A stretch of DNA of 64,000 bases from Armatimonadota bacterium (lineage in GTDB: Bacteria; Armatimonadota; Fimbriimonadia; Fimbriimonadales; Fimbriimonadaceae), in contig WGMG01000002.1 in NCBI GenBank assembly GCA_016125185.1, forward strand, positions 434,001 to 498,000, written 5' to 3'. Below, one piece after another: positions 6,123 to 38,566 of the stretch. Below the pieces are notes generated by a model. That model saw only the letters and a list, made by a program, of their open reading frames with translations. It did no database searches and was not told the origin of the DNA. Position 1 is the stretch's first letter. Every line of letters starts with the position of its first letter. The position numbers were made by a program, and so were the translations under genes.

Positions 6123-8123
6123 TTAAGCGCTTGGCAAAAGCTCGGCCAAAACACCGAACAACTCGTCGGCGTCGATCGGTTTAGTCAGATACCGGTCGGC
6201 GCCCATCTTCAGCAGGTACCGCCGCGACGACTGCGTCGCGTCCGCACTAAGGATCACCACGGGAATCGAGCTCGTTTCCTCGTCGCGCTTCAACTGCTCG
6301 AGAACCTCCGCCCCGCTGATATCCGGCAGGTGCAGGTCGAGGACGATCAAGTTCGGACGATGCTCCCGCGCAAACGTTAGCCCCATCGTTCCCTGCATCG
6401 CCGGAATGACCTCGATGTCCTTTCGAATCGCGAAGAACTGCTCAAGAAGCCGAAGGTTGGTAAGGTTGTCTTCGATGCAAAGAACTTTGGCCCGCACGAG
6501 GCGAGGAAGCTCCGATTCAAATTCTGTACTTGGCTCGGCAGCTACGTAGGCTTCATCCGCCTTCAAAAGGTCGACCGCAAAAGCCGTCCCGCTTGAGTCG
6601 GATCGAATGAGCGAAAGACGACCACTCATCATGTCGGCCAACTGTTTGGACAGTGCCAACCCAAGTCCAACCCCGTCATGATTGCGGTTGCTCAACCGCT
6701 CAAAGGGAACAAATAGCTTGGCCTGATCCTCTTCAGAAATGCCACGCCCCGTATCGGTCACTTCAAAACGGAAAAGCGTCTCCGAAATCGGGTAGCAACG
6801 CAAATCGACCTTGCCTTCCGGAGTGTTGTAACGCACAGCGTTCGACAGCAGGTTGATCAGCACCTGCAGAATTCGCTGGCGGTCCGCCAGGATCATAAAA
6901 TGCTTTGGAGCGTCGATGGACCATATCAGTTCGATACCTGCATCGAGAGCCAGAGGCATGGCCAGGCCGACCGCCTGTTTGATCACATCTTCTACATCGA
7001 CCGGCTCCAACGAAACCGTCAGCCGCCCTTCCTCGATCCTTGCGATATCTAAAACCTCGTTGATGAGGTCGAGAAGATGCCGTCCCGCCTTCAAAATCGG
7101 GCGGACCAATTCCAGAGTTTCCTCGTCCCCATGCTGAAGATTGAGCAACTGCGCGTATCCGAGCACCGCATTCAGAGGCGTCCGAAGTTCGTGGCTCATC
7201 CGCGAAAGGAACTCGTTCTTCGCCTGGTTCGCCCGCTCGGCTTCGGTCTTGGCGCTTGCCAGCGATTCTTCGGCAACCTTCCGGTCGGTGATGTCCTGCG
7301 CCATACCCGCGACTCGAAAAGAATCCCCTTGTCCAATCGGAACCCGAAAACCTTTATTCCAAATCCAGCGCACCTGCCCGTCGGGTCGAACGATGCGAAA
7401 TTCATGGTCGAGCGTTCCCGTTTGCTCAAAATGTAGGAGGCTCTGATGGATGGCCGGGACATCGTCGATGTGAGCCCCCGCATAAAGGTGCCGCGACTTC
7501 TGGTTAGAGGTGGCCAAGTCGCGACCCCAAATCTTTTCATATCCGGGGCTGATGTACGACTCGGTGTCCTGGCTCCCATCCAGAATCCAGAACACCTCGC
7601 CCATATTGTCGGCGATAAAGCTCAACCGAAACTCAGACTCCTTCAGGGTATTCACTACCTCCTCGACCCGCCGTTCCAAGCGGTCGTTTTGGGCGTTCAG
7701 GGCCCGCTGCATCCGGTGCCGCTCAATGCCAAACCGAATAAACTGCCCCAGCATCGAACCGTTGAGGTGTCGCTTTGAAAGGTATTCCGCAACCCCCGCC
7801 CGAACCATGTCCATCGCGACCGAGTGGTCTTCCAACCCCGTAAGAACAATGATTGGGAGCTCCGGCGAAGAGTCCTGAAGACGTCGAAACGTGTCAAGTC
7901 CTTGGCTGTCTGGGAGCCCAAGATCAAGGAGCACAATGTCAAATTCTTCGCCTCGCACCGCTACCAGCGCTTCACTAAGCGTTTCGGCGTGGACCACGCT
8001 TGAGCGAAAGTGTTGGGTCTCTCGCAAAGCCTCAGAGACGATCAGGCGGTCGGTCGGCTCATCCTCAACGTGCAGAATGCGCAAAGTCTCCGTGGTTTCG
8101 GCGGCAAAAGAACTGAGCGGCAT
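6123..8123 (-). CDS. hybrid sensor kinase REC-PAS-HisKA-HATPase-REC
   Basis: A 666-residue soluble kinase. The N-terminal receiver has Asp67 in IVLLDLGLP. A PAS domain (about 163-285) ends in DITDRK. HisKA carries SRMSHELRTPLNAV with His311, followed by HATPase_c (about 425-535) with intact DTGRGI and GLGLALSK boxes. A second receiver (about 550-663) contains IVLDLHLP. There are no membrane segments, so the signal is cytoplasmic or comes from phosphotransfer into the N-terminal receiver. It is the last gene of a three-gene minus-strand group, 29 bp after the single-domain response regulator. All catalytic motifs look functional. Confidence 0.92.
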   Translation of the reverse strand: MPLSSFAAETTETLRILHVEDEPTDRLIVSEALRETQHFRSSVVHAETLSEALVAVRGEEFDIVLLDLGLPDSQGLDTFRRLQDSSPELPIIVLTGLEDHSVAMDMVRAGVAEYLSKRHLNGSMLGQFIRFGIERHRMQRALNAQNDRLERRVEEVVNTLKESEFRLSFIADNMGEVFWILDGSQDTESYISPGYEKIWGRDLATSNQKSRHLYAGAHIDDVPAIHQSLLHFEQTGTLDHEFRIVRPDGQVRWIWNKGFRVPIGQGDSFRVAGMAQDITDRKVAEESLASAKTEAERANQAKNEFLSRMSHELRTPLNAVLGYAQLLNLQHGDEETLELVRPILKAGRHLLDLINEVLDIARIEEGRLTVSLEPVDVEDVIKQAVGLAMPLALDAGIELIWSIDAPKHFMILADRQRILQVLINLLSNAVRYNTPEGKVDLRCYPISETLFRFEVTDTGRGISEEDQAKLFVPFERLSNRNHDGVGLGLALSKQLADMMSGRLSLIRSDSSGTAFAVDLLKADEAYVAAEPSTEFESELPRLVRAKVLCIEDNLTNLRLLEQFFAIRKDIEVIPAMQGTMGLTFAREHRPNLIVLDLHLPDISGAEVLEQLKRDEETSSIPVVILSADATQSSRRYLLKMGADRYLTKPIDADELFGVLAELLPSA

Positions 8124-27744: not shown

Positions 27745-29064
27745 TCACTCAAACTCCTTCACCCCAACCGGACGCCCCAAGAAGTACCACAGCCAAAACG
27801 CGTAATAAGCCAAATACGCCCACGGCGACACCGCATGCCGATACACCAGCAGACACAGAGCCTGCGCCGTATACAGCGTCACCAGCTTGATCCACCAGAT
27901 TAGCGGATACGCCACCAACGCAAACAGCCAACCCACGAACGGAATCAGGCTCAGATACCCCAGCACCATCACCGCCGACGACGGAAACTCGATCAGCAGG
28001 TTGCTGAGCACACCCACAAAAACGATCCGCCCGAACCACCATGCGCACAACGGCTCCGCCGCAACCGTCGCCACCAGCGACGCCATCACCACCGATCTCA
28101 GCTTCGGCATCGGCTCGGCCCGATGCCGGTCGAAATACATCAGCAGGAACCCCGACACCAGAAACGAAAGCTGAAACCCGGCCGTAAAGATGTCGCTTGG
28201 CACGAAGAACAGCCAGACCAATGCCGCCAAACAAAGCGACGACAAGCCGTCCGACGACCGCCGAAACAGGTACGCCGACGACCCCACCAGCCACATCAGC
28301 GAAGCCCGAACCGTCGGCGCGTGGAACCCGGTCAGACAGCAATAAATCATCAACAGCGCGGTGACCAAGCCAACCTGCCACGCCCGCCGCACTCCCAATC
28401 CGACCAGCAGAAACTGAAGCGCCGCCGCCAGCACAAACACATGCACGCCGCTCGCGCTCACCATGTGGAACGTCCCGTTGTACCGCAGGTCCGACTTCTC
28501 GTCCGAGCTCAAATCCGACGGAAAATTGAACGTCAGCGCCGTCACCCACGCCCCATCCTCGACTCCGAACACGTCGTTCACACCCGCGATCGCCCGCTTC
28601 TGTAACTGCACCAACGAGTCGAACACCGCCCACCGCGAAACCACCCGCACCTGGTCGGTCGTCAGGCTCCCCGACTTCGTGGCCGCCGCCATCCCCTGCA
28701 CGTCCGCGACGGCAAATGGTGACAAAACCACCGACGGATCGACCCGCAAAACCCCCGTCCGAGCCTCCGCCCCCAACGTCCGAAATGAGTACACCGCCTT
28801 CCCTTTCTGGTAGTCGGGAAACGAGCGAATCTCAACCCGCTCATGAACCTCGCCCGCCGAAATCGGAGGCGCCGGCGTCCGCCATCCCACCAATAGCCCA
28901 CCGACCAAGATGCCAAGGCTGACCGTCGCGATCCAATACCGCCGCACCGTCCACCCCGCCCCAACACCAACACACGAAAGCCAGGAAACCGCCGGAAAAC
29001 TGATCCCGACCAACAGGCCAATGAAAAACACAAAGAGCGGCCGCCGCCTCAGCTCATTGAACAC
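27745..29064 (-). CDS. ComEC/Rec2-type membrane protein, short form
   Basis: A 439-residue polytopic protein with a GTG start 5 nt after AGGGGG. TM helices at the N-terminus are followed by a soluble OB-like part (about 70-150). The competence domain has HMVSASGVHVFVLAAAL, GFHAPTVRASLMWLVG and FQLSFLVSGFLL, which correspond to conserved ComEC motifs (usually SGLHV, VRA and FQLSF). ComEC forms the channel for DNA uptake across the inner membrane. The C-terminal metallo-beta-lactamase domain found in many ComEC proteins is absent. No other competence gene is adjacent. Confidence 0.85.
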   Translation of the reverse strand: MFNELRRRPLFVFFIGLLVGISFPAVSWLSCVGVGAGWTVRRYWIATVSLGILVGGLLVGWRTPAPPISAGEVHERVEIRSFPDYQKGKAVYSFRTLGAEARTGVLRVDPSVVLSPFAVADVQGMAAATKSGSLTTDQVRVVSRWAVFDSLVQLQKRAIAGVNDVFGVEDGAWVTALTFNFPSDLSSDEKSDLRYNGTFHMVSASGVHVFVLAAALQFLLVGLGVRRAWQVGLVTALLMIYCCLTGFHAPTVRASLMWLVGSSAYLFRRSSDGLSSLCLAALVWLFFVPSDIFTAGFQLSFLVSGFLLMYFDRHRAEPMPKLRSVVMASLVATVAAEPLCAWWFGRIVFVGVLSNLLIEFPSSAVMVLGYLSLIPFVGWLFALVAYPLIWWIKLVTLYTAQALCLLVYRHAVSPWAYLAYYAFWLWYFLGRPVGVKEFE

Positions 29065-29253
29065 CCATTCCCCCTACACAAGAAGCCCGGACAACTTGCC
29101 TAATTGACACGATACACCTACGCATGACGAATAGTCCAATTCATATTGGGCTGACCATTCTGTGCAGGGTTGCCGACCACAAGGCACAGGATTCAGAGCC
29201 TGGCGGGCGAATTTGTAAGCAAAGAAGTTCACTTCACCGAAGAGTAATGCTCT

Positions 29254-29670
29254 TCACCAACCCTCGGCGCTGCGCCTGGCAGAGAGTACCAATTTAAGAC
29301 CATCACAAATGACCTCAATATATTCTCGTCCGAAGATAGACACACATAGCTTATTAAGCTCAGCCGTAACTTCCACATCATAATTGGCAAGCCACTCAAC
29401 TTCATCTAAGAACGACTCAAATACGGGGAGTTTCGCTAAAAAACGAATCTTATCTTCGCCTATCGACAAATAAGAACCATTCTCTCTCTCCATTGTGTCA
29501 AGAATCATACAACTATTTAGTAGGCAAAGAGTTGCGCGATTCTTATTCGCATTATCCTCTGGCGAAGATTTCTCTCTTCTTCTTGAGAAGCGCCACCTTG
29601 GTCTCATTGATTCATACGATTTCGCAGAGTAATTTTTTGCTAATATTCCAAAGCGACCGCTATATCTCAT
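29254..29670 (-). CDS. orphan ORF downstream of the RHS fragment
   Basis: A 138-residue frame of lower GC than its surroundings. The first 54 residues are basic and Ser/Arg-rich. The last 84, starting at an internal Met (codon near 29508), look more protein-like, acidic with regular hydrophobics (KIRFLAKLPVFESFLDEVEWL). It lies directly after the displaced RHS fragment on the same strand, where a toxin tip or immunity gene would be expected. No family is recognised. The start and even coding status are uncertain. Confidence 0.4.
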   Translation of the reverse strand: MRYSGRFGILAKNYSAKSYESMRPRWRFSRRREKSSPEDNANKNRATLCLLNSCMILDTMERENGSYLSIGEDKIRFLAKLPVFESFLDEVEWLANYDVEVTAELNKLCVSIFGREYIEVICDGLKLVLSARRSAEGW

Positions 29671-29709
29671 ATTCTACTATTAAAAATCTAGCCAATCAGC
29701 ACGGTAGGC

Positions 29710-30071
29710 GAGTTACTCGTGGTTCCGTTGGATACCAACGAGGTCATCCGATTCAGATCATCCCATGTATAGGTTATACCACTCGTTCCTGAACCTTTGG
29801 TCAAGCGATTGCCAAGGATATCATTGGTGTACCCACCGGTCACTCCTGGGCTAGCCGTCATGCGATTTAGATTGTCGTAAGACCACGTTCCTGAATTCGT
29901 CGAATCCGACGCTCGATTGCCCGCCGCATCATAGGTCCACGACGGCGTCGCGTTGGATAGTCCGTCCCCGTAGTTAGCACTTGTTAGGTAGTCCAAATTC
30001 GCATCGTATCCATAGGTTTCGGTTCGTTGGATGTTCCATGAGCCATTCGATACATTGTAATACTTGTTCTG
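29710..30071 (-). pseudogene. displaced RHS core fragment
   Basis: About 120 codons are homologous to the RHS protein at roughly 32149-32510, sharing YGYDANLDYLTSANYGDGL, TYDAAGNRASDSTNSG and DNLNRMTASPGVTGGYTND. Identity is high but not complete (KYYNVSNGS against KFYNVSSGS). The match ends at SLVSNGTTSN, after which this copy reads SPTVLIG and stops. The 5' end starts in unrelated sequence (KGRKEEGERG). No signal peptide or RHS N-terminus is present, so it cannot encode a full RHS protein. Such fragments are the usual residue of tip-exchange at RHS loci. Confidence 0.8.
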
Positions 30072-30407
30072 CGCTGCATTCCTGCATCCTCTTTCGCCTT
30101 CCTCCTTCCGGCCCTTGCCAAGGAGTTTGGCGGACATGGTGCTCCGGCGGATGAAACGGCTACAGCGGACAGGTCAACCTCGGAGCTTCCTGCTTTCGCG
30201 CAAGCGCTACGGCGGACAAGTCGCACATGATCGGATGCCCGTCCGCCGAAGCCGGAGGCGAAGGAGGATACAGGCCACCCCTAGTTGTGAGTTTTACTCT
30301 GGAGTGGAGCGACATCCCGAAAGCCCCAAGCGCATCGGGACGCCTCCCTATTCGGCTCCAACACCTGGAATCTTCGACACGCAGTGGCTCGCCAGTCAAA
30401 GAAGTAG
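30072..30407. other. gap with degenerate direct repeats
   Basis: No gene is supported. GCTACAGCGGACAGGTC (30159-30175) and GCTACGGCGGACAAGTC (30206-30222) are a 17-bp direct repeat with two differences. Further GCGGACA/TCCGCC words lie at about 30130 and 30243. The rest is GC-rich sequence resembling degenerate intergenic repeats. Confidence 0.45.
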
Positions 30408-30740
30408 TTATTTAGCCCGCTTATCGTGGAGTCCTGATGTCAGTTGAGTCCACATTTCTCTAATCTCCAGGCCACTAGCGGGCCCATACTTTCTGCTCAA
30501 ACTTATTATCAGAGGAAGGACAAAAAGTATGATCCAGCAAAGAACGTTACCGATCAAACCAAGCAGACCCGACCCAAACAGCATGACCAATGGACTTAGA
30601 ATCGTCAAGGCCAGAATCAATAACCATAAACAAGTTACTCGAAAATAGCCTCGTATGGTAAAAGCCACGCTTAAGGCACCCGCAAGCAATAATACTGGTA
30701 CTAATATTGAATCTGCAACCATGACAATGATGACATTCAT
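30408..30740 (-). CDS. three-TM small membrane protein, candidate RHS immunity protein
   Basis: A 110-residue product with three hydrophobic segments, about residues 9-28, 36-56 and 62-83, followed by a polar C-terminal tail (KYGPASGLEIREMW). It is on the same strand as, and downstream of, the RHS gene, whose C-terminal tip is itself hydrophobic. Immunity proteins against membrane-acting toxins are often small multi-helix membrane proteins, which makes this a candidate. The 503-bp gap to the RHS gene is longer than usual for such a pair. No family is recognised; the role is inference. Confidence 0.55.
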   Translation of the reverse strand: MNVIIVMVADSILVPVLLLAGALSVAFTIRGYFRVTCLWLLILALTILSPLVMLFGSGLLGLIGNVLCWIILFVLPLIISLSRKYGPASGLEIREMWTQLTSGLHDKRAK

Positions 30741-31243
30741 GTTATCACACTTCTCTGCGAAATGGGAACATTATGAGTCAATTTCAGTTAAAATCAAAAT
30801 GTCCGTGGAGATCAATGCGATTCTTTTCTAGCCTCACGGAGCGAGACTAGCATGATTTATACGTCCCTGAAGTACCAACGGTGCCTTACCTTTAGTCGCC
30901 TGATTCATTCGATAGCGAATACTTATGAAATAAGGATCATTCAGGCTCAAGGCTACTATATAACCGCACTAGTGATGCGAAGTACCAGCTTTTCAAAGTA
31001 AATACACTTTGGTACTCAGGCGATATTCCAAATCATTTGAAGATCCTTATTATGTCGCGTGGTCTACCTTCCTTGGCTTTGACCACCGAGTGATTCGAAC
31101 TTATGATTGGCCCGTTTGTATCTTATGCATATTTTCACGCCATAGAACAAGATGTTCAACCAAACCATATCTCCTGTGAAAAGTCTCGTCAACTCAAAAT
31201 GTCAGAAACGATCATTCAATAAACTCCATAGCGAATCTTTTCA
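30741..31243. other. AT-rich gap with decayed coding remnants
   Basis: This stretch is clearly lower in GC than its surroundings. On the minus strand an AGGAG-ATG start opens a 34-residue frame (MVWLNILFYGVKICIRYKRA). Further on there is a 40-codon open stretch (LSLNDPYFISIRYRMNQATK) preceded by stops. Neither is a full gene. They look like remains of former tip or immunity genes at the RHS locus. Confidence 0.4.
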
Positions 31244-34200
31244 CTATGGATCATCTCCATTGGTCGCTAGTATTAGTAACCTAAGTGCCCCGTTAAATTC
31301 AGCGTAGAAATACATTACTATACAAGCAAGGCCACCGGCCGCACCTAGTACGACTCCAAAACAACCGAGCACTAGTCCAGGCAAATCACATGTGCCAACT
31401 GCGGCGATCACAGCAGCGATAGAGTAGTCCGTAATAGCGTTGCAAAGTTCACCAATCCCATACCACATGAGCATATCATGGATAGTCTCAGAAAAGATCC
31501 TATTACCTTCCCGCGTTTTTGGACAGTCGAGGCCCGCCTTAACACAAAGGTATTCGAGAAAGTGCAGAATCACTTGGATTAGTGCTTCACCCACAGTACT
31601 TTTGCCGCTTCCGTCCACACGATTCAGAGGGTCATTTTTGCAATAGCTGAACCAATTTGAAGTTTGTCGAGCAGTATCTTCGCTCACAAAGCGACCCACC
31701 TGGCAGTCAAAGTAACGAGCCTTCATGTAGATTAGACCAGATTCGTCGTCTTGCTTGTGACCGAGATTGGCGCAATATCGCCCCTTCTGATCACCAGAGG
31801 CTCCGCCTGAGCGCACCTGCCCCCAGGCATCGTAGGTTCGTTCGTCAGAAAGCGACCAAGACGAACCTGACTTCGACAGCATACCTATATTGTTGCCGTG
31901 AGCATCGTATAGTGGATAGGCGACTGTTGTTCCTGAACTGGTGGAACGGGATATGGCGTCGATGCCTCTGGCCCCAAGGGCGTTACGGGTTATGGCCGTG
32001 ACTGAATAGGACACACCCCCATTGGTCGAATTCAGTTCGACATCTTCAATACCCATCTGGCCGTCGTAGCGATACTGCGTCATATCGCTATTGGTAGAAC
32101 CGGCATGGCTTTCCTTTTGCACTCGAAGGCCGTCGGCTCGATACAAGTAATTGCTCGTAGTACCATTGGATACCAACGAGGTCAAGCGATTCAAGTCGTC
32201 CCACGAATACGTCGTAGCGGTCGTTCCAGAACCTTTTGTAAGGCGATTTCCGAAAATGTCGTTGGTATAACCTCCGGTCACTCCCGGCGAGGCCGTCATA
32301 CGATTAAGATTGTCGTAAGACCACGTTCCCGAATTCGTCGAATCGGAGGCGCGATTACCCGCCGCATCATACGTCCAGGAAGGCGTCGCGTTGCTCAGTC
32401 CATCACCGTAGTTCGCCGAGGTCAGGTAGTCCAAGTTAGCGTCGTATCCGTAGGACTCCGTTCGTTGAAGGTTCCAACTTCCGCTACTGACATTATAGAA
32501 CTTATTCTGGGTTTTGAGACCCCGTTTCAGACCGGTCGTCTCGTACACACACTCGTTGGCGCGGATAGGCGTGGAATCGTATGAACTCGTTCCCGGGTTG
32601 TAGGTATCCCACCAGTTGTAGACGCCAAGCGCCCGTCCTCCGCCGTCATAGCTATAGAATGTACGGCCCCGCGTCGCAGCTTTGTGGCTGCTGTCGTAGT
32701 ACGAGGCGCCCCCACTCGGAGTCCAGGTTTGCGGCGTCATCGCGAAGGTTACTTGACGTGGTCGACCGGACGAATCCAAGGCATAGTGAAATTCCTCGGA
32801 AGTTGCGTTGCCGGTGCTGGCGTCTATATTCGTCAGCGCTTGGAATATACGGCTAGGTTGCTCGGCTCCGACATCCACATAATCGTGATACTGCCATTTC
32901 ACCGTGTTCGAAAGTCCAAGTGCCGATTGAGTGACATACGTAGATGTGTCTCGGTCACCGGCCCAGTTGTAGGTGTACGACGTCGAATATGTGTCACTTC
33001 CATTGGTTTCGGTGACGCTCGTCGGCATTCCGATCGAGATCCCGGAAGACGAATATGTCATCGACTGGGACACCCCGCTAAGATTGTCGGTAAAGTTAAG
33101 AACCTGTCCGTTAGTGACGCCCGTCGTTCCATAGGTGTAGGTCACCACTGGCGTCGAGATCGAACCGTCGATCTTTTCGATGCTTTCAATTTGATCATCA
33201 TCGTTGAGGTACGTCGTGTGGTACTCATTCCCTGAAGCGTCTTGAATTGTGACCCCCCTTCCCTTCGAATCATAAGCGAGAGTGTCGGTCGTTCGATTGA
33301 TGCCTCCGTAGTCTTCTATGACTTCATTGGCTTGCCCCCAGCTTCCGTCGGTATCGGCCCCATAACTAGTGTGGGATCGGACGTAGGTATATGGGCTCGT
33401 CGACGTACTTTGAACCTTCCAGACATCAATTGCCCGTCCCTTACTATCGTAGTCGAACAGAACCGAGTAATCGCTAGGATCCGATACTTCTAGTTGATAC
33501 CGCCACCATGTCGAAGAAGGTTGGCCCTGAACTACATAGTCGGGAGGCTGAATATTTGTGTTAACATTGATGTCTGCTCGTGCTTGATCGTAAACCCGAT
33601 AGGTTTGCCCCTTTTTGCCTTGGGTTGCCTGATCATCATAGTAGTCCGTGTAGCTGAGTCGGCCATAGGAATCCTTAATGGCTTTTTGCTGATAGTACTT
33701 CTCGGCTCCCCAATAGGCGTAGGCCGTCGAGGTCGTCCGGTCGAGAACCATGCTGCTTCCGCTTCGCGTGTACTCAGAACCAACTTTTGTGAGCGGGTTG
33801 CCCATAAAGTTATAGGTATTCGTCGAAGTCGCGTAATTCGTCATCGCTGGACCATCGGGCGTTGGGCTGTAGGTACTGTGGAACCGGCTGGGCTGGTTCG
33901 AGTGATCGTACACCCGGTAGGTTTCCGTCATTAGGTTCTGGCTCGGCGTATCGTAGTCCTTTTGCCAGAGGTCGCTGAGGCCCGTAAAGACCACGTAGGT
34001 TGTGTTCGTTTGCCGCGCGATCACGCTGAACGTCGTTCCCGAAACGTTTTGAACAATTTCAAATCCGTGTATGAGGTTGTAGGGCCCCTGGCCGGCGGTA
34101 CCGTCGTAATCGGTACCGGTGTAGTCGAACACATCGGTTACCGGGATGGTTTGGGTTGCGCCATCGAAGAGGAAGAAGTAGTCCGTCTTTACGCCGTTTG

Positions 34201-35497
34201 GCGCAATTTGGCGCCGAGCGGCGGGAGTCCAGCCATATCGAGGAACAAACTCCATGGTGTATGAGATAGACGTTGTCAGGCCGCGCAGATCCGTGATCGA
34301 CGTCATCAGTCCGGTCGCGGCATCGGGACCATAGTTGTAGTTCTCGACCGCATTGCCGTAGCCGTAGGTTGTCGTCTTTCCTCCTGCTGATGTAAAGGAT
34401 GTCAGGTATTCACTGCTGTAAGAATCGTAGCCATAAGTGACGGTACGAACTCCATCCGTGGCCGATGTAAGGCGATTACCCGTCCAGCCAAAGGTGATAT
34501 GATGGCCGTTTGGCATTTGAACATCCGTGAGCGGACGCTCCTTAGTCGTGCCATTGGATTTCGTAAAATTGACCCAAGCCGTCGAGCTATAAGTGTAGGT
34601 GGTCTCGTTGCCATGCCGGTCGGTTGCCTTTGTAATTTTGAGCACATTGGATGGTTCACCAGTTGCCCCCGAATCATCATATGGTCGAGACGCCAAAAGC
34701 GAATGGTCTGGGTTTTCGTACCATCCTTCCTTTTGATACTCGTAAACCGTTCCCTCCGGGGTGTTGACGTAGTTGTGCGTCATGACCTGGTAGTTCACGC
34801 CGTCGATGACTTGGGTTTCGTACTCTGAATCGATCTTATTCTTGTCCCACGGCGGCGTGCTGAGAATTCCATCCGCGTCGCGCTGGATCGTCTCCTCCGT
34901 CCCCGCCGAGTCGGTTGCCATTACCGCCGTGACTGGCGAACTCGTTGAGGAGCCTCCACTGGTCCCGTTGCCGTACACCGCATTCGGGTCGATCTGCGCC
35001 GACGGACGTTCTTTGAAGTTCGTTGGCACCGAGCGAACGGGAGCGCTGCCCGACTTCATGATGCCTCCCGCCGTGCTCCGCACGTCGACCGACAGATTCC
35101 ACCCTTTGCCCAGCGGACCCTCTTCCGCGTTGTTGGCACTATAGCTTCGCGTCACATTCACGGGAATGCCATAACCGTCCTTGAAGCTCAAGTCCGTCGC
35201 CGACATGGTAAAGTTCCCCGTCATCAGGTCGACGCCTTTGTACATCACATCCCACTTGTTTTGACCGGCCGCATACGGATTCTCGCCGGACTTGCCCTGC
35301 GCCGTCTTCATCGTCTTCGCGCTGAGGATCTTTGACGGCGTTGAATCCGGCGTGACCGGCGGCAACTGAGCCTTCACCCACGCCTTGGTATCCCGCACGG
35401 TCTTCGCCCAGGCAAGCCCAGGCACCAAGCAGAAGACAAGGGTAAACGTGCTGAAGACAGCGACGGATTTTCCAAACGGCGAGTTGATGCGAATCAT
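31244..35497 (-). CDS. RHS repeat protein with hydrophobic C-terminal tip
   Basis: A 1417-residue product. A signal peptide (to about residue 31, VPGLAWA) is followed by a domain with YKGVDLMTGNFTMSATDLSF, as in the N-terminal region of many RHS proteins. Long YD/RHS repeats follow (SYTYNWAGDRD, TYDAAGNRASD, YGYDANLDYL). The RHS core ends with LIYMKARYFDCQVGRFVSED and NDPLNRVDGSGK near residue 1305. The last ~110 residues are a separate tip with two Gly-rich hydrophobic segments (IAAVIAAVG, then LVLGCFGVVLGAAGGLACIV). RHS shells enclose and deliver toxic tips; a membrane-inserting tip is suggested here. It is the last gene of a three-gene operon. Confidence 0.92.
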   Translation of the reverse strand: MIRINSPFGKSVAVFSTFTLVFCLVPGLAWAKTVRDTKAWVKAQLPPVTPDSTPSKILSAKTMKTAQGKSGENPYAAGQNKWDVMYKGVDLMTGNFTMSATDLSFKDGYGIPVNVTRSYSANNAEEGPLGKGWNLSVDVRSTAGGIMKSGSAPVRSVPTNFKERPSAQIDPNAVYGNGTSGGSSTSSPVTAVMATDSAGTEETIQRDADGILSTPPWDKNKIDSEYETQVIDGVNYQVMTHNYVNTPEGTVYEYQKEGWYENPDHSLLASRPYDDSGATGEPSNVLKITKATDRHGNETTYTYSSTAWVNFTKSNGTTKERPLTDVQMPNGHHITFGWTGNRLTSATDGVRTVTYGYDSYSSEYLTSFTSAGGKTTTYGYGNAVENYNYGPDAATGLMTSITDLRGLTTSISYTMEFVPRYGWTPAARRQIAPNGVKTDYFFLFDGATQTIPVTDVFDYTGTDYDGTAGQGPYNLIHGFEIVQNVSGTTFSVIARQTNTTYVVFTGLSDLWQKDYDTPSQNLMTETYRVYDHSNQPSRFHSTYSPTPDGPAMTNYATSTNTYNFMGNPLTKVGSEYTRSGSSMVLDRTTSTAYAYWGAEKYYQQKAIKDSYGRLSYTDYYDDQATQGKKGQTYRVYDQARADINVNTNIQPPDYVVQGQPSSTWWRYQLEVSDPSDYSVLFDYDSKGRAIDVWKVQSTSTSPYTYVRSHTSYGADTDGSWGQANEVIEDYGGINRTTDTLAYDSKGRGVTIQDASGNEYHTTYLNDDDQIESIEKIDGSISTPVVTYTYGTTGVTNGQVLNFTDNLSGVSQSMTYSSSGISIGMPTSVTETNGSDTYSTSYTYNWAGDRDTSTYVTQSALGLSNTVKWQYHDYVDVGAEQPSRIFQALTNIDASTGNATSEEFHYALDSSGRPRQVTFAMTPQTWTPSGGASYYDSSHKAATRGRTFYSYDGGGRALGVYNWWDTYNPGTSSYDSTPIRANECVYETTGLKRGLKTQNKFYNVSSGSWNLQRTESYGYDANLDYLTSANYGDGLSNATPSWTYDAAGNRASDSTNSGTWSYDNLNRMTASPGVTGGYTNDIFGNRLTKGSGTTATTYSWDDLNRLTSLVSNGTTSNYLYRADGLRVQKESHAGSTNSDMTQYRYDGQMGIEDVELNSTNGGVSYSVTAITRNALGARGIDAISRSTSSGTTVAYPLYDAHGNNIGMLSKSGSSWSLSDERTYDAWGQVRSGGASGDQKGRYCANLGHKQDDESGLIYMKARYFDCQVGRFVSEDTARQTSNWFSYCKNDPLNRVDGSGKSTVGEALIQVILHFLEYLCVKAGLDCPKTREGNRIFSETIHDMLMWYGIGELCNAITDYSIAAVIAAVGTCDLPGLVLGCFGVVLGAAGGLACIVMYFYAEFNGALRLLILATNGDDP

Positions 35498-35504
35498 AGT
35501 GAGT

Positions 35505-35700
35505 TTCCAGTTTGCGATTGGCAGTTGGCAGAAAAAGTGACGAAGTTGAAATTGTTCGTGATGGGCGACGCGCTAGAAGCTAGTTGCTGGCAACCGGAGC
35601 CTACTTCTTGGCTCCAAGTTTCACGTCCTCGTTTGTCAGAAGGCAGAAGGCAGAAAGCAGAAGGCCCGCAGCAGAATCCTGAATCCTGAAGCCTGCTCCT
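35505..35700. repeat. heptamer-period repeat region, locus 3
   Basis: Between the RHS and C39-like genes, short units at a 7-bp period recur: TTGGCAG twice near 35519-35532, GCTAGAA/GCTAGTT/GCTGGCA near 35572-35592, and CAGAAGG, CAGAAGG, CAGAAAG, CAGAAGG at 35638-35665. Then CAGAATC, CTGAATC, CTGAAGC and CTGCTCC run to the stop codon of the C39-like gene. Confidence 0.75.
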
Positions 35701-36701
35701 CACGACTTCCCTCCCGCTAGCGGCTTCTCGGGCTTGGTCGGCTCGGCGACCAGGTCAGCTTTCGGAAGCTCGAAGGCAAGTCCCATCGCCCGAAAGTCGG
35801 CGTTGTCGGGGGCAGGCAGGGATCGCCACACCTCGTTGTCATAGCGAGAATCGTAGACTCTCATCCGACCTTCCTTAATCTCCAGGACCGCCAAATAGTG
35901 GTCGTTCTGGAGCCAAACAAACGGTTTGGTCAGATGGCAGAAGTCCCGAGCGTTGAGCTCGACACCCACCGCTTCAAGGCCGATCGCGTCGCAACCCTTC
36001 TTGAGGCCTTCTAATGTGGTTCCGCTGTCCGTAGTCCCACACAGCTTGGCCAGCTCCTTATAGTCTTTTTGCGGTTGACCCAGGATTGGCAAAATCTTCT
36101 CTATGCACTTCGGACCACACACGCTCGTTTCGAACCGAATCCGCTTCTCTTGCGCCGCAATCCCGGCCTGTAGCCGAGCTTCATCTTCGGGAAGGTTTTT
36201 CCCGTGCAAACGCTCAAGGCGGCGGAAGCAAGCCGTGATCAACGGACTCTCCTTTCGTTCTTCCATGAACTGGCGATACTCCTTCTCCGCCTCGTCCTTC
36301 TTCCCTTCGGCGTCCACGCACACAATCGCTTGGTAGGCCGCTTGGTCGCTCAGCGTCCCGTAGTCGGGGTCCATCGCGTTCGTGCCTTTGTGCTTGTAGG
36401 CCGCTTCGACGAACTCCGCATGAGCCGCCCCAAAGTCCTTCTTTTTCGCCGCTTCGTAACCCTCCATGATTCGGGCTCGTGTCACCAGCGACTGCACTTC
36501 TTTATCGGAAGAGTTTTCGTTCTGAGCGATGAATTCTTTCGGAGCGTCTTTGACTTCGGACAACTCCTTCCTCGGTAGAGGCTTCGTCGCGTAGGCCGGC
36601 AAAGGATGGCCGTTGTTCTTGTGGGGAGCCAGCAAAACCACTCCTGCCGCGACGGCACCCAACGCGGCGACCGCGAATCCGACTTTCCAAGCCATCTTCA
36701 T
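35700..36701 (-). CDS. membrane-anchored C39-like cysteine peptidase with helical repeat domain
   Basis: A 333-residue product. ATG at 36701 overlaps the upstream stop as TAATG and is preferred to a start 21 nt earlier. There is one TM helix (about 8-25) and a TPR-like helical part (about 65-170). The C-terminal domain has TSVCGPKCI (Cys195), FVWLQNDHYLAVLE (His268) and RVYDSR (Asp284), the Cys-His-Asp order of peptidase family C39. C39 enzymes usually cleave double-Gly leader peptides in ABC exporters, but no ABC transporter is fused here. Position before the RHS gene suggests a role in processing or release of the RHS protein (inference). Confidence 0.8.
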   Translation of the reverse strand: MKMAWKVGFAVAALGAVAAGVVLLAPHKNNGHPLPAYATKPLPRKELSEVKDAPKEFIAQNENSSDKEVQSLVTRARIMEGYEAAKKKDFGAAHAEFVEAAYKHKGTNAMDPDYGTLSDQAAYQAIVCVDAEGKKDEAEKEYRQFMEERKESPLITACFRRLERLHGKNLPEDEARLQAGIAAQEKRIRFETSVCGPKCIEKILPILGQPQKDYKELAKLCGTTDSGTTLEGLKKGCDAIGLEAVGVELNARDFCHLTKPFVWLQNDHYLAVLEIKEGRMRVYDSRYDNEVWRSLPAPDNADFRAMGLAFELPKADLVAEPTKPEKPLAGGKS

Positions 36702-38167
36702 TACGGGTACTTCACCTTCCAAACTCGGGGCTGGCTGTCCGTGTAGGGATACACCTGGCCACTGACCGCTTCAAGCCATGTCGAACCGAAGTACTGCCAC
36801 GTTTGGGCCGTTTCGTCCGTCTGACACAGAGCGAAGTTGCTCCACATACTGTTGTGGGTATTGTTCCCGTCTCCACCGTAAGCCGTCTGCCAAACTTCGC
36901 TGACCGGCGGCGTCTGCCAGTTGAGGAAGTTGTCGACGTCGGTCGAGCCCGGTGCCACCGTATAGTACGGCGCATTGATGAAGTCGCCCGCCGCCGTCTG
37001 TGTTCCGCCGGGATTAACCGTCCATCGACGAGTCCAGTTTGCGTTCAGACCTTGAGAAATGTACGTATCCGAGGAGGAAGGCCGAAACAAACCAATCGTG
37101 CCGGAGCTCACCGACGAACCGCCATGAAGCATCCTCGCACCGGTGTCGAAGCAAGTCAGACAAGCGTACAGATAGGTGGTCGCGTCTCCGGCTGTTGTCA
37201 ATTGCAACTGTGTCCGCGCGGTGCCGCTCTGGTCATTCGCCGAGCTGTAGGACAAGTTCCCCACGAAATGCCCGCCATGAAAAATCCAGGGCTGGAACAC
37301 GTTCGTCGTCAAGTCGGCGTTCGGATCACCCGGCAATTCGCCATCGATGTTCGCTTTTCCGAAGACCCGCCGCGAGTCCAGACTGATGGATGTCAGGTTG
37401 ACTCGGTCAACCTCAAGTGCGATCTTGTACCAGTTCGAACCATAGGTCGTATTGTATGCAGGAGGGTTTGAGCCTGGAATTAGGTAGGTATAGGCCGTAT
37501 CCTTTCGAACATAGAAGTTCAGACTTCCACTCGAAAGGGCCGCGTTCTGGTTACCAAGTTGAACGTAGGCTGGCCAGTCGGATAGCTGATTGACACCGCC
37601 ATACCCAGGCGCGTCAGTCACCGCGCAGGCAACGTCTGACAGGAGGTTGTTGTTGGTGTCGTAAACTGGGGTGATGGTACTGGAGTAGATCGTCGGCAAC
37701 GAACCACTGCTTCCTAGTTCAACTCCGCTGGGGACTGCGACACCAGTAATCAAAGAGTAGTCAGGACCATGCGGATTGCTGTTGTAAATGCAAGGACAAA
37801 TGATCTTGAGGCGAACGACATGCCGATCTGACTGAGGTGAAACCAGGTTTCCACCCGACAGATACTGCGAAGGAGCGTGAAGCTTTTCCTCCAACTTCGT
37901 CAAGGTCACGTAAACAAGACTCGACCCTCCGCCGTCCCCGGCAGTCGCGCCAGTCGTCCCCGTCGTACTGGTCGTTGAAGTGCTGCTCGTTGTCGAAGTT
38001 GTACTGGTGGTCGATGTCGTACTAGTTGTCGAAGACGTACTCGTCGTTCCGCTCGTGACCTGCACACCCGTCGTACCCGCACCAGGCTGAGCGCTCGAAA
38101 AGAGAATTCCCGCTAAGAGAATCCCGACGACCGCCAGCGATTTCAAAGTTGTACTACCGCGTTCCAA
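36701..38167 (-). CDS. secreted Ser/Thr-rich protein, first gene of the RHS operon
   Basis: A 488-residue product with a TTG start, supported by AAGGGA about 5 nt upstream. The signal peptide (SLAVVGILLAGILFSSAQ) is followed by a Ser/Thr tract (about 38-72, many STT units). The remaining ~400 residues are beta-rich, with paired Cys (CPC and CLTC) and many Tyr, Asn and Trp residues. No family is recognised. It is translationally coupled to the C39-like gene through TAATG. Composition fits a surface or extracellular partner of the RHS protein, possibly an anchor or delivery protein, but there is no direct evidence. Confidence 0.75.
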   Translation of the reverse strand: MERGSTTLKSLAVVGILLAGILFSSAQPGAGTTGVQVTSGTTSTSSTTSTTSTTSTTSTTSSTSTTSTTGTTGATAGDGGGSSLVYVTLTKLEEKLHAPSQYLSGGNLVSPQSDRHVVRLKIICPCIYNSNPHGPDYSLITGVAVPSGVELGSSGSLPTIYSSTITPVYDTNNNLLSDVACAVTDAPGYGGVNQLSDWPAYVQLGNQNAALSSGSLNFYVRKDTAYTYLIPGSNPPAYNTTYGSNWYKIALEVDRVNLTSISLDSRRVFGKANIDGELPGDPNADLTTNVFQPWIFHGGHFVGNLSYSSANDQSGTARTQLQLTTAGDATTYLYACLTCFDTGARMLHGGSSVSSGTIGLFRPSSSDTYISQGLNANWTRRWTVNPGGTQTAAGDFINAPYYTVAPGSTDVDNFLNWQTPPVSEVWQTAYGGDGNNTHNSMWSNFALCQTDETAQTWQYFGSTWLEAVSGQVYPYTDSQPRVWKVKYP

Positions 38168-38566
38168 AACAGTCCCTTAAACCCATTACGGGCCATTAGC
38201 TAGTAATCATACGCGACTTTTCAGAAATCAATAGTATGAATTTCGAACATATTTTGACCAATAAATCAACTTATCATAATTATCATGTATTTTTTATGGT
38301 TCAAAACGCGATTTAGGCGACAGGACATACTCTCTGAGAATTCCTGGAATTCTAGCAAAACCCTTAACCGTCCCTTCACATGTGCTGAAACGCCTTCATG
38401 GGACACGCAAGATTATTTAACCCTCGGGTTAATCTCGCCGAGCCATTTTGTGCCATTCCGCCCACCCAAACCCCGACCAAAATCTAACGCGATCTTGACA
38501 CCCTCCAAACCGATCTTTTGTACTACGCGTGCGTAGTACACTCAGGACCGAACGGTCGCGACATAT
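38168..38566. other. divergent intergenic region, RHS operon / RND pump
   Basis: A 399-bp region. Its left part (about 38190-38300) is AT-rich and probably holds the RHS operon promoter. Its right end carries a perfect palindrome (38520-38539) before the efflux genes. No coding sequence is supported. Confidence 0.5.
38520..38539. promoter_or_regulatory. perfect palindromic operator before the RND pump genes
   Basis: GTACTACGC-GT-GCGTAGTAC, two 9-bp arms with a 2-bp spacer, 27 bp before the first gene. TACACT (38537-38542) could be the -10 element, so a bound repressor would block the promoter. The size fits a dimeric repressor site (TetR, PadR or MarR type), but no regulator gene is nearby. 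Confidence 0.65.

Follow-up and report, generated by a model that had tools for sequence, protein, structure and literature searches.

Among the systems closest to the locus described here is Tse5 of Pseudomonas aeruginosa, an RHS protein whose C-terminal domain (the tip) inserts into the membrane and depolarises it, and whose immunity protein Tsi5 comprises two predicted transmembrane (TM) regions (PMC9637101). Our locus lies in a 64,000-nucleotide stretch of DNA from an Armatimonadota bacterium (assembly GCA_016125185.1, contig WGMG01000002.1, positions 434,001 to 498,000; this whole stretch is called the window in the following) and encodes an RHS protein ending in a hydrophobic tip. As in Tse5/Tsi5, an RHS protein with a hydrophobic C-terminal tip is combined with a candidate TM immunity protein, a likeness that here consists of hydropathy and class statistics. 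While Tse5 is loaded onto a type VI secretion system and has a PAAR-like N-terminus, the protein of the window shows a Sec-like signal, DUF6531, no PAAR match and a C39-like peptidase gene as neighbour. The hydrophobic tip type was found to mark one lineage of RHS cores, within which it is the rule.

Membrane toxins are also known from contact-dependent growth inhibition (CDI), where the ionophores form a large polymorphic set of helical toxins with the glycine zipper as the only common element; their CdiI proteins are very hydrophobic and 72-100 aa long, and DiBAC4(3) staining serves as the assay (PMC11630599). There, an N-terminal entry domain and then a five-helix ionophore domain are carried on CdiA, whereas the tips described here comprise about 120 aa behind an RHS core, and the partner open reading frames (ORFs) are mostly 70-180 aa long with up to 7 hydropathy segments. 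The glycine zipper is common to the CDI ionophores and the tip of the window (GVVLGAAGG, a G-x3-G-x3-G pattern), though the pattern is not diagnostic in our data, since it was similarly present in tips of the core lineage (17 of 70) and in the others (24 of 91). In the type VII-secreted EsxX, TelE and TspA toxins of Gram-positive bacteria, whose delivery is unrelated to the RHS locus, a depolarising glycine-zipper C-terminus is accompanied by polytopic membrane immunity proteins, which also occur as orphans (PMC12744356). Orphan rhs-CT/rhsI and cdiA-CT/cdiI modules follow the full-length gene as displaced copies that retain homology to its core on their upstream side (PMC3150448). The cassettes of our set resemble the orphan rhs-CT modules, but their boundary is DPxxxxDxxGK-like instead of DPxGL, and most of their tips belong to one physical class. 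RHS scaffolds, cassette exchange and small adjacent immunity genes are shared with the polymorphic toxins surveyed in 2012, whose known immunity proteins were cytoplasmic and globular in all but a few cases (PMC3482391), whereas membrane partners are the majority here. The same survey counts C39-like domains as toxins, while the C39 domain of our locus is encoded by a separate upstream gene. The tip class as such was known already, but a lineage of RHS cores devoted to tips of this kind and linked to a C39 gene was not found described in the literature searched.

The core lineage was delimited on a midpoint-rooted FastTree of 161 short core segments, in which several nested nodes are weakly supported; the node holding the window comprises 70 cassettes at a support of 0.973 and is called the clade below. 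In this set, which combines searches with the window's own core and top-scoring TIGR03696 matches and so does not sample RHS genes at random, a grand average of hydropathy (GRAVY) above 0.3 was determined for 58 of 70 clade tips compared to 5 of 91 outside. The tips are hypervariable, with 146 clusters at 30% identity among 161, and with one tip per cluster the amounts were 54 of 66 and 5 of 80, respectively (p = 3e-22). Clade tips showed a median length of 121 aa (10th-90th percentile 113-135) compared to 177 aa outside, were net negative in 63 of 70 versus 39 of 91 cases, and contained a median of 4.3% lysine and arginine (K+R) versus 11.4%. Outside the clade, 24 of 91 tips end in 12 residues of net negative charge, compared to 55 of 70 inside it, where these residues usually follow a hydrophobic stretch; the acidic end of the clade tips might be a shared element for release, plugging or insertion.

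TIGR03696 served as control query against 255 Armatimonadota genomes, of which 199 gave a match, and about 80 stretches were taken from the much longer match list. Among tips of at least 60 aa, GRAVY exceeded 0.3 in 25 of 66 from the same order and in 3 of 64 from other families, the latter with a median length of 184 aa. The taxonomy and tree sets exclude exact duplicates, tips that are below 60 aa or run open into a contig end, and cores with internal stops or short of the boundary; one tip (L063_2950) includes a masked stretch. Core relatives at E <= 1e-30 were present in 10 of 20 genomes of the genus (own genome counted), often several per genome and in tandem, and their extracted tips were nearly all 100-150 aa long, mostly hydrophobic and mutually different. 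A genome scan with the core alignment yielded 35 loci, with titles mostly of Armatimonadetes, Fimbriimonas/Fimbriimonadaceae or Chthonomonas-type metagenome-assembled genomes (MAGs), one labelled as archaeon and one only as 'bacterium'. One clade cassette (L075) lies on a contig labelled Methanoregulaceae archaeon MAG, which probably reflects a binning error or a transfer. Tandem orphan cassettes with core fragments were found in several genomes. The first-pass annotation had described the tip as a less common type, which is true in comparison with the other RHS genes of the phylum but not within this core lineage. Since hydrophobic tips are the rule there, the finding is stronger than had been stated.

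The tip of the window is acidic and hydrophobic itself (GRAVY about 0.76, net charge -7, K+R 4%). The conserved NDPLNRVDGSGK boundary that had been noted ahead of it is present, and the TIGR03696 match stops at residue 1298 of the RHS protein. From two Gly-rich hydrophobic segments proposed for the tip, one clear TM segment was retained (residues 76-94, mean 2.31) by Kyte-Doolittle hydropathy with a sliding window of 19 residues and a cut-off of 1.6; the other one, YSIAAVIAAVG, is a short stretch that is not rich in Gly. An AlphaFold2 model of the tip with 15 divergent tips comprised four helices at a pLDDT (predicted local distance difference test) of 66, with the C-terminal helix modelled best, and that of a related tip family (8 sequences) five helices at 52. 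Foldseek with the model of the window tip gave no usable match (best E 2.9). According to these models the tip is probably all-helical, and because of their low pLDDT and the lack of a usable Foldseek match the fold is established no further than 'helical'. Searches of the tip against Pfam, PADLOC, PHROG and, by hmmsearch, the PDB gave no match. For the RHS protein as a whole, Pfam gave only DUF6531 and NCBIfam only Rhs_assc_core, with neither PAAR or another delivery domain nor a CdiA-type family match in these searches.

The second line of evidence comes from the genes behind the tips. As partner, the longest ORF of at least 45 aa near the tip stop was taken, a rule that sometimes picks the wrong frame, so that some partners are miscalled; tips were classed by GRAVY within the tree-defined clade, and 2 of the 161 cassettes were dropped for having fewer than 350 nt downstream. 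For 67 of the 70 clade cassettes a near partner ORF was recovered; its start lay between -28 and +64 nt relative to the tip stop (median -3), and its median length was 110 aa. It contained a TM segment in 49 of 55 cases after hydrophobic clade tips, compared to 2 of 12 after the other clade tips (Fisher p = 1.7e-6). For all 132 cassettes with a near ORF the corresponding counts were 51/8 versus 24/49 (p = 2.9e-10), while decoys, the longest reverse-strand ORFs of the same 500 nt, carried a TM segment in 5 of 52 clade cassettes and 3 of 59 outside. An earlier, simpler TM-count test of 61 cassettes with the same choice of partner, in which four tips below 80 aa and two running off the contig had been dropped, gave a weaker association (35/8/8/10, p = 0.006; Spearman 0.26, p = 0.04). 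In comparative terms, this matching of tip and partner strongly supports toxins that act on membranes and are paired with immunity proteins in the membrane. The pairing of a membrane toxin with its immunity protein, as put forward in the first-pass annotation, is thus well supported at the level of the class (49/6 versus 2/10), while the assignment of the 110-aa protein in particular is unproven and its position at +504 atypical.

Altogether, we consider it fairly probable, on the sequences at hand, that the tip is the current toxin of an RHS polymorphic-toxin locus of the Armatimonadota and belongs to a core lineage dedicated to acidic, helical, hydrophobic tips of about 120 aa. The RHS protein would be exported via Sec, with the RHS shell shielding the hydrophobic tip, which may then be freed near a neighbouring cell, perhaps helped by the C39-like peptidase. 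By analogy to the CDI ionophores and Tse5, it would insert into the inner membrane of the target and dissipate the membrane potential, while a small membrane protein encoded just downstream would block insertion or assembly in the producer. New tips may be gained by recombination between the core and the tandem orphan tip/partner cassettes.

Several observations weigh against this interpretation. In the clade, 12 of 70 tips lie below the hydrophobicity cut-off, and the lineage is therefore not purely membrane-directed. The models of the tips are poor, and Foldseek found nothing below the E value given above. Together with L075 and L087, the window is one of the 3 of 70 clade cassettes without a near partner ORF: none of at least 45 aa starts within 80 nt, and the candidate partner follows only at +504, beyond an 11-pair hairpin that covers the tip stop. 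Neither the tip nor the 110-aa protein has a relative good enough for a co-inheritance test of the pair.

The small three-TM protein described in the first-pass annotation was recovered. Its 110 aa contain TM segments at residues 3-21, 37-55 and 61-79 (mean hydropathy 2.55-2.57), with positive residues in the loop after the first and in the tail after the third segment. In 3000 dinucleotide shuffles of the stretch from the tip stop to the end of the ORF, an ORF of at least 105 aa arose 74 times, but never with three TM segments (0/3000), and the ORF is therefore very likely a real gene. Judged from its sequence, the product is probably an immunity protein of this class. That its gene is the next one after the tip is correct insofar as no ORF of at least 45 aa lies on the tip strand in between; the two are, on the other hand, 503 bp apart, and a 42-aa ORF with a TTG start lies between them. 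The GC content falls from 0.54 in the core to 0.475 in the tip and 0.40 in the gap, and amounts to 0.43 in the 110-aa ORF. If the hairpin terminated transcription, it would part the tip from the 110-aa gene. The gap was considered as a mobile repeat and as a frameshifted TM gene; the first was rejected as the stretch is unique in the genome, the second as the best hydropathy in any frame was 1.47 and no homology to the loci examined was found. Rfam gave no family at gathering score in 29000-38500.

The 110-aa protein could be the cognate immunity protein or a second or orphan gene left after a first partner decayed, with chances that are about even, and for the locus of the window the pairing as named remains doubtful. 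The alternative reading, to which we give just under an even chance, accepts a membrane-acting tip but places its true partner in the 503-bp stretch, where it would have decayed, with the 110-aa gene as an orphan or in second position. Such an origin would account for a start at +504 in a clade whose partners begin close to the tip stop, and for a gap that is low in GC, genome-unique and devoid of a gene of at least 45 aa; moreover, the adjacent cassette of the window is visibly decayed. Second TM ORFs occur behind a first one at other loci, namely a 3-TM ORF at +469 in L048 and one at +482 in L055, and the 110-aa gene could therefore just as well be an immunity gene that is orphaned or in second position. 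Contrary to this, an intact toxin without immunity would endanger its producer, and translations of the gap show no recognisable homology to the loci examined.

The remaining alternatives concern the nature of the tip. The hydrophobic part might be a translocation or 'pre-toxin' segment without effector domain, the copy of the window being a truncated, dead toxin, as glycine-zipper segments can serve translocation in the Tde1 effector (PMC10240207). However, the 117 aa of the tip are the length norm of the clade, and such lengths recur across many genomes, which makes a truncation unlikely. Somewhat less probable still is an enzymatic tip whose hydrophobicity is incidental, such as a toxin that modifies lipids: predicted lipid-modifying enzymes are known among polymorphic toxins (PMC3482391), but the window tip matched none of the four collections searched, no convincing Pfam or PADLOC match was obtained for any of the 59 tips scanned (best matches, one tip each: Pfam E 0.0018 to Ectodermal ciliogenesis protein, PADLOC E 0.001), and the tip alignments, which are poor, contain no invariant residues. 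Very improbable are C-terminal membrane anchors or surface-display segments, since, although the tips are hydrophobic and C-terminal on a protein with a Sec-like signal, anchors give no reason for hypervariability, tandem cassettes or a downstream gene whose TM content follows the tip, and the match between partner location and tip type, expected of toxin/immunity pairs, would be hard to explain.

Direct relatives are scarce. The same tip on other RHS cores, as searched for after the first-pass annotation, was absent from 100 relatives (own genome only among 101), from the GTDB contig scan and from plasmids. Its best distant relative was the L037 tip (phmmer E 0.012 among 64 tips), with a BLAST similarity of 11 residues at the C-terminal end; between the L037 partner and the 110-aa protein, no similar piece exceeds 17 residues (best E 0.042, single pair). 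A search with the 110-aa protein returned the own genome and one weak locus in genome G078 (E = 0.002). This candidate was rejected as a chance TM match: the locus, which is GC-rich, seems to encode a larger and unrelated membrane protein of VKOR/DsbA-like type, and its contig (L058) gave no match to the RHS core.

Upstream of the RHS gene, the C39-like gene is a conserved neighbour of the full-length genes of this lineage. In 71 genomes of the family the C39-like protein gave 16 matches, 12 of them directly upstream of an RHS match, while the other 4 (G020, G153, G160, G031) had no RHS match alongside at E <= 1e-100. Conversely, among the 16 RHS matches at E <= 1e-100 all 12 that start in the first 60 residues have an upstream C39-like gene, and the other 4 (G020:C135, G158, G037, G058) are partial. 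Of the genus loci with readable upstream sequence, the window aside, 6 of 7 carry it (L036, L037, L038, L039, L040, L042), with L041 as the sole exception; L035 starts too near a contig end and was kept outside this count.

Class II bacteriocin systems combine a C39 domain fused to an ABC transporter with a short peptide bearing a double-glycine leader. Here, by contrast, no ABC transporter domain was found in the C39-like protein, and the tip forms the C-terminus of a protein of 1417 aa. A more far-reaching proposal, for and against which the evidence seems evenly balanced, is that the lineage, with the upstream peptidase and a second exported protein, is specialised in delivering a single hypervariable superfamily of short, acidic and hydrophobic tips that resemble ionophores. 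Among RHS proteins, such a lineage would correspond to the CDI ionophores, with C39 as dedicated release enzyme and partner location (membrane or cytoplasm) tracking tip type. The third gene of the conserved trio encodes a 488-aa protein with a long Ser/Thr-rich repeat past its signal segment, and its relatives adjoin six other RHS genes.

Downstream of the tip, positions 29254-30137 look like the relic of an orphan cassette whose tip was lost. The second core copy is 80% identical to the first across 300 nt of DNA, and its reading frame stops without a tip. The features of the locus are listed in Table 1.

Table 1. Features of the RHS locus by position in the window
Feature	Position	Strand	Basis or remark
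138-aa soluble ORF, GC 0.417, after relic core	29254..29670	-	possible leftover partner of lost cassette
Truncated second RHS core copy, tip lost	29712..30074	-	91% aa identity to residues 996-1116
110-aa protein, three TM segments, candidate immunity protein	30408..30740	-	hydropathy
Stretch from tip to 110-aa ORF, 503 bp, GC 0.40	30741..31243	-	possibly decayed first partner gene
42-aa TTG ORF, +52 from tip stop	31064..31192	-	below 45-aa cut-off; possible first-partner remnant, or chance
Terminator-like hairpin, 11 pairs, on tip stop codon	31225..31250	-	2 such sites found, 1.6 expected in shuffles
RHS protein, 1417 aa	31244..35497	-	domain searches and sequence read
N-terminus of RHS protein, Sec-signal-like (MIRINSPFGK...GLAWA)			signal peptide read from sequence
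DUF6531 in RHS protein	residues 89-140		Pfam search
Rhs_assc_core (TIGR03696), directly before tip	31604..31834	-	residues 1222-1298
Tip, 117 aa	31247..31597	-	C-terminal to Rhs_assc_core
C39-like peptidase, N-terminal membrane/signal segment	35700..36722	-	PF03412, E 1.9e-10
488-aa protein, signal-like N-terminus, third of conserved trio	36701..38167	-	no family assigned

Some further loci of the set deserve mention. At L133 (G026:C1:522500-536900), at least 7 RHS tip cassettes with near partner ORFs lie within 14 kb, a good natural panel of pairs. In contrast to the hydrophobic tip, that of a further RHS gene in the genome of the window (L057, G000:C6, core 7048-7374) is soluble and about 180 aa long and, on a reading of its sequence (LTHELQH), resembles a metallopeptidase. 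From L069:3270 onward a clade-type tip is broken by an early stop (58 aa); a neighbouring ORF may encode more of it, and downstream a soluble ORF of 120 aa is still intact, which may represent a toxin in decay whose partner has been retained. In L035, a 172-aa ORF lies between two RHS cassettes, about 587 nt past the tip stop of the one at 6364; its motif resembles that of a REP-associated Y1 transposase.

RHS scaffolds have been thought of as indifferent carriers of any tip, whereas here one core lineage bears mostly one physical class. This suggests an adaptation to hydrophobic cargo in the shell, in the adjacent peptidase or in the route of export. The locus would add the Armatimonadota, a phylum on whose antagonism little was found in print; joint mentions of Rhs and a C39 peptidase were likewise scarce in the literature searched. 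Furthermore, the dozens of dissimilar tip/partner pairs represent a panel for studying how toxins that insert into membranes are recognised and blocked by small membrane proteins.

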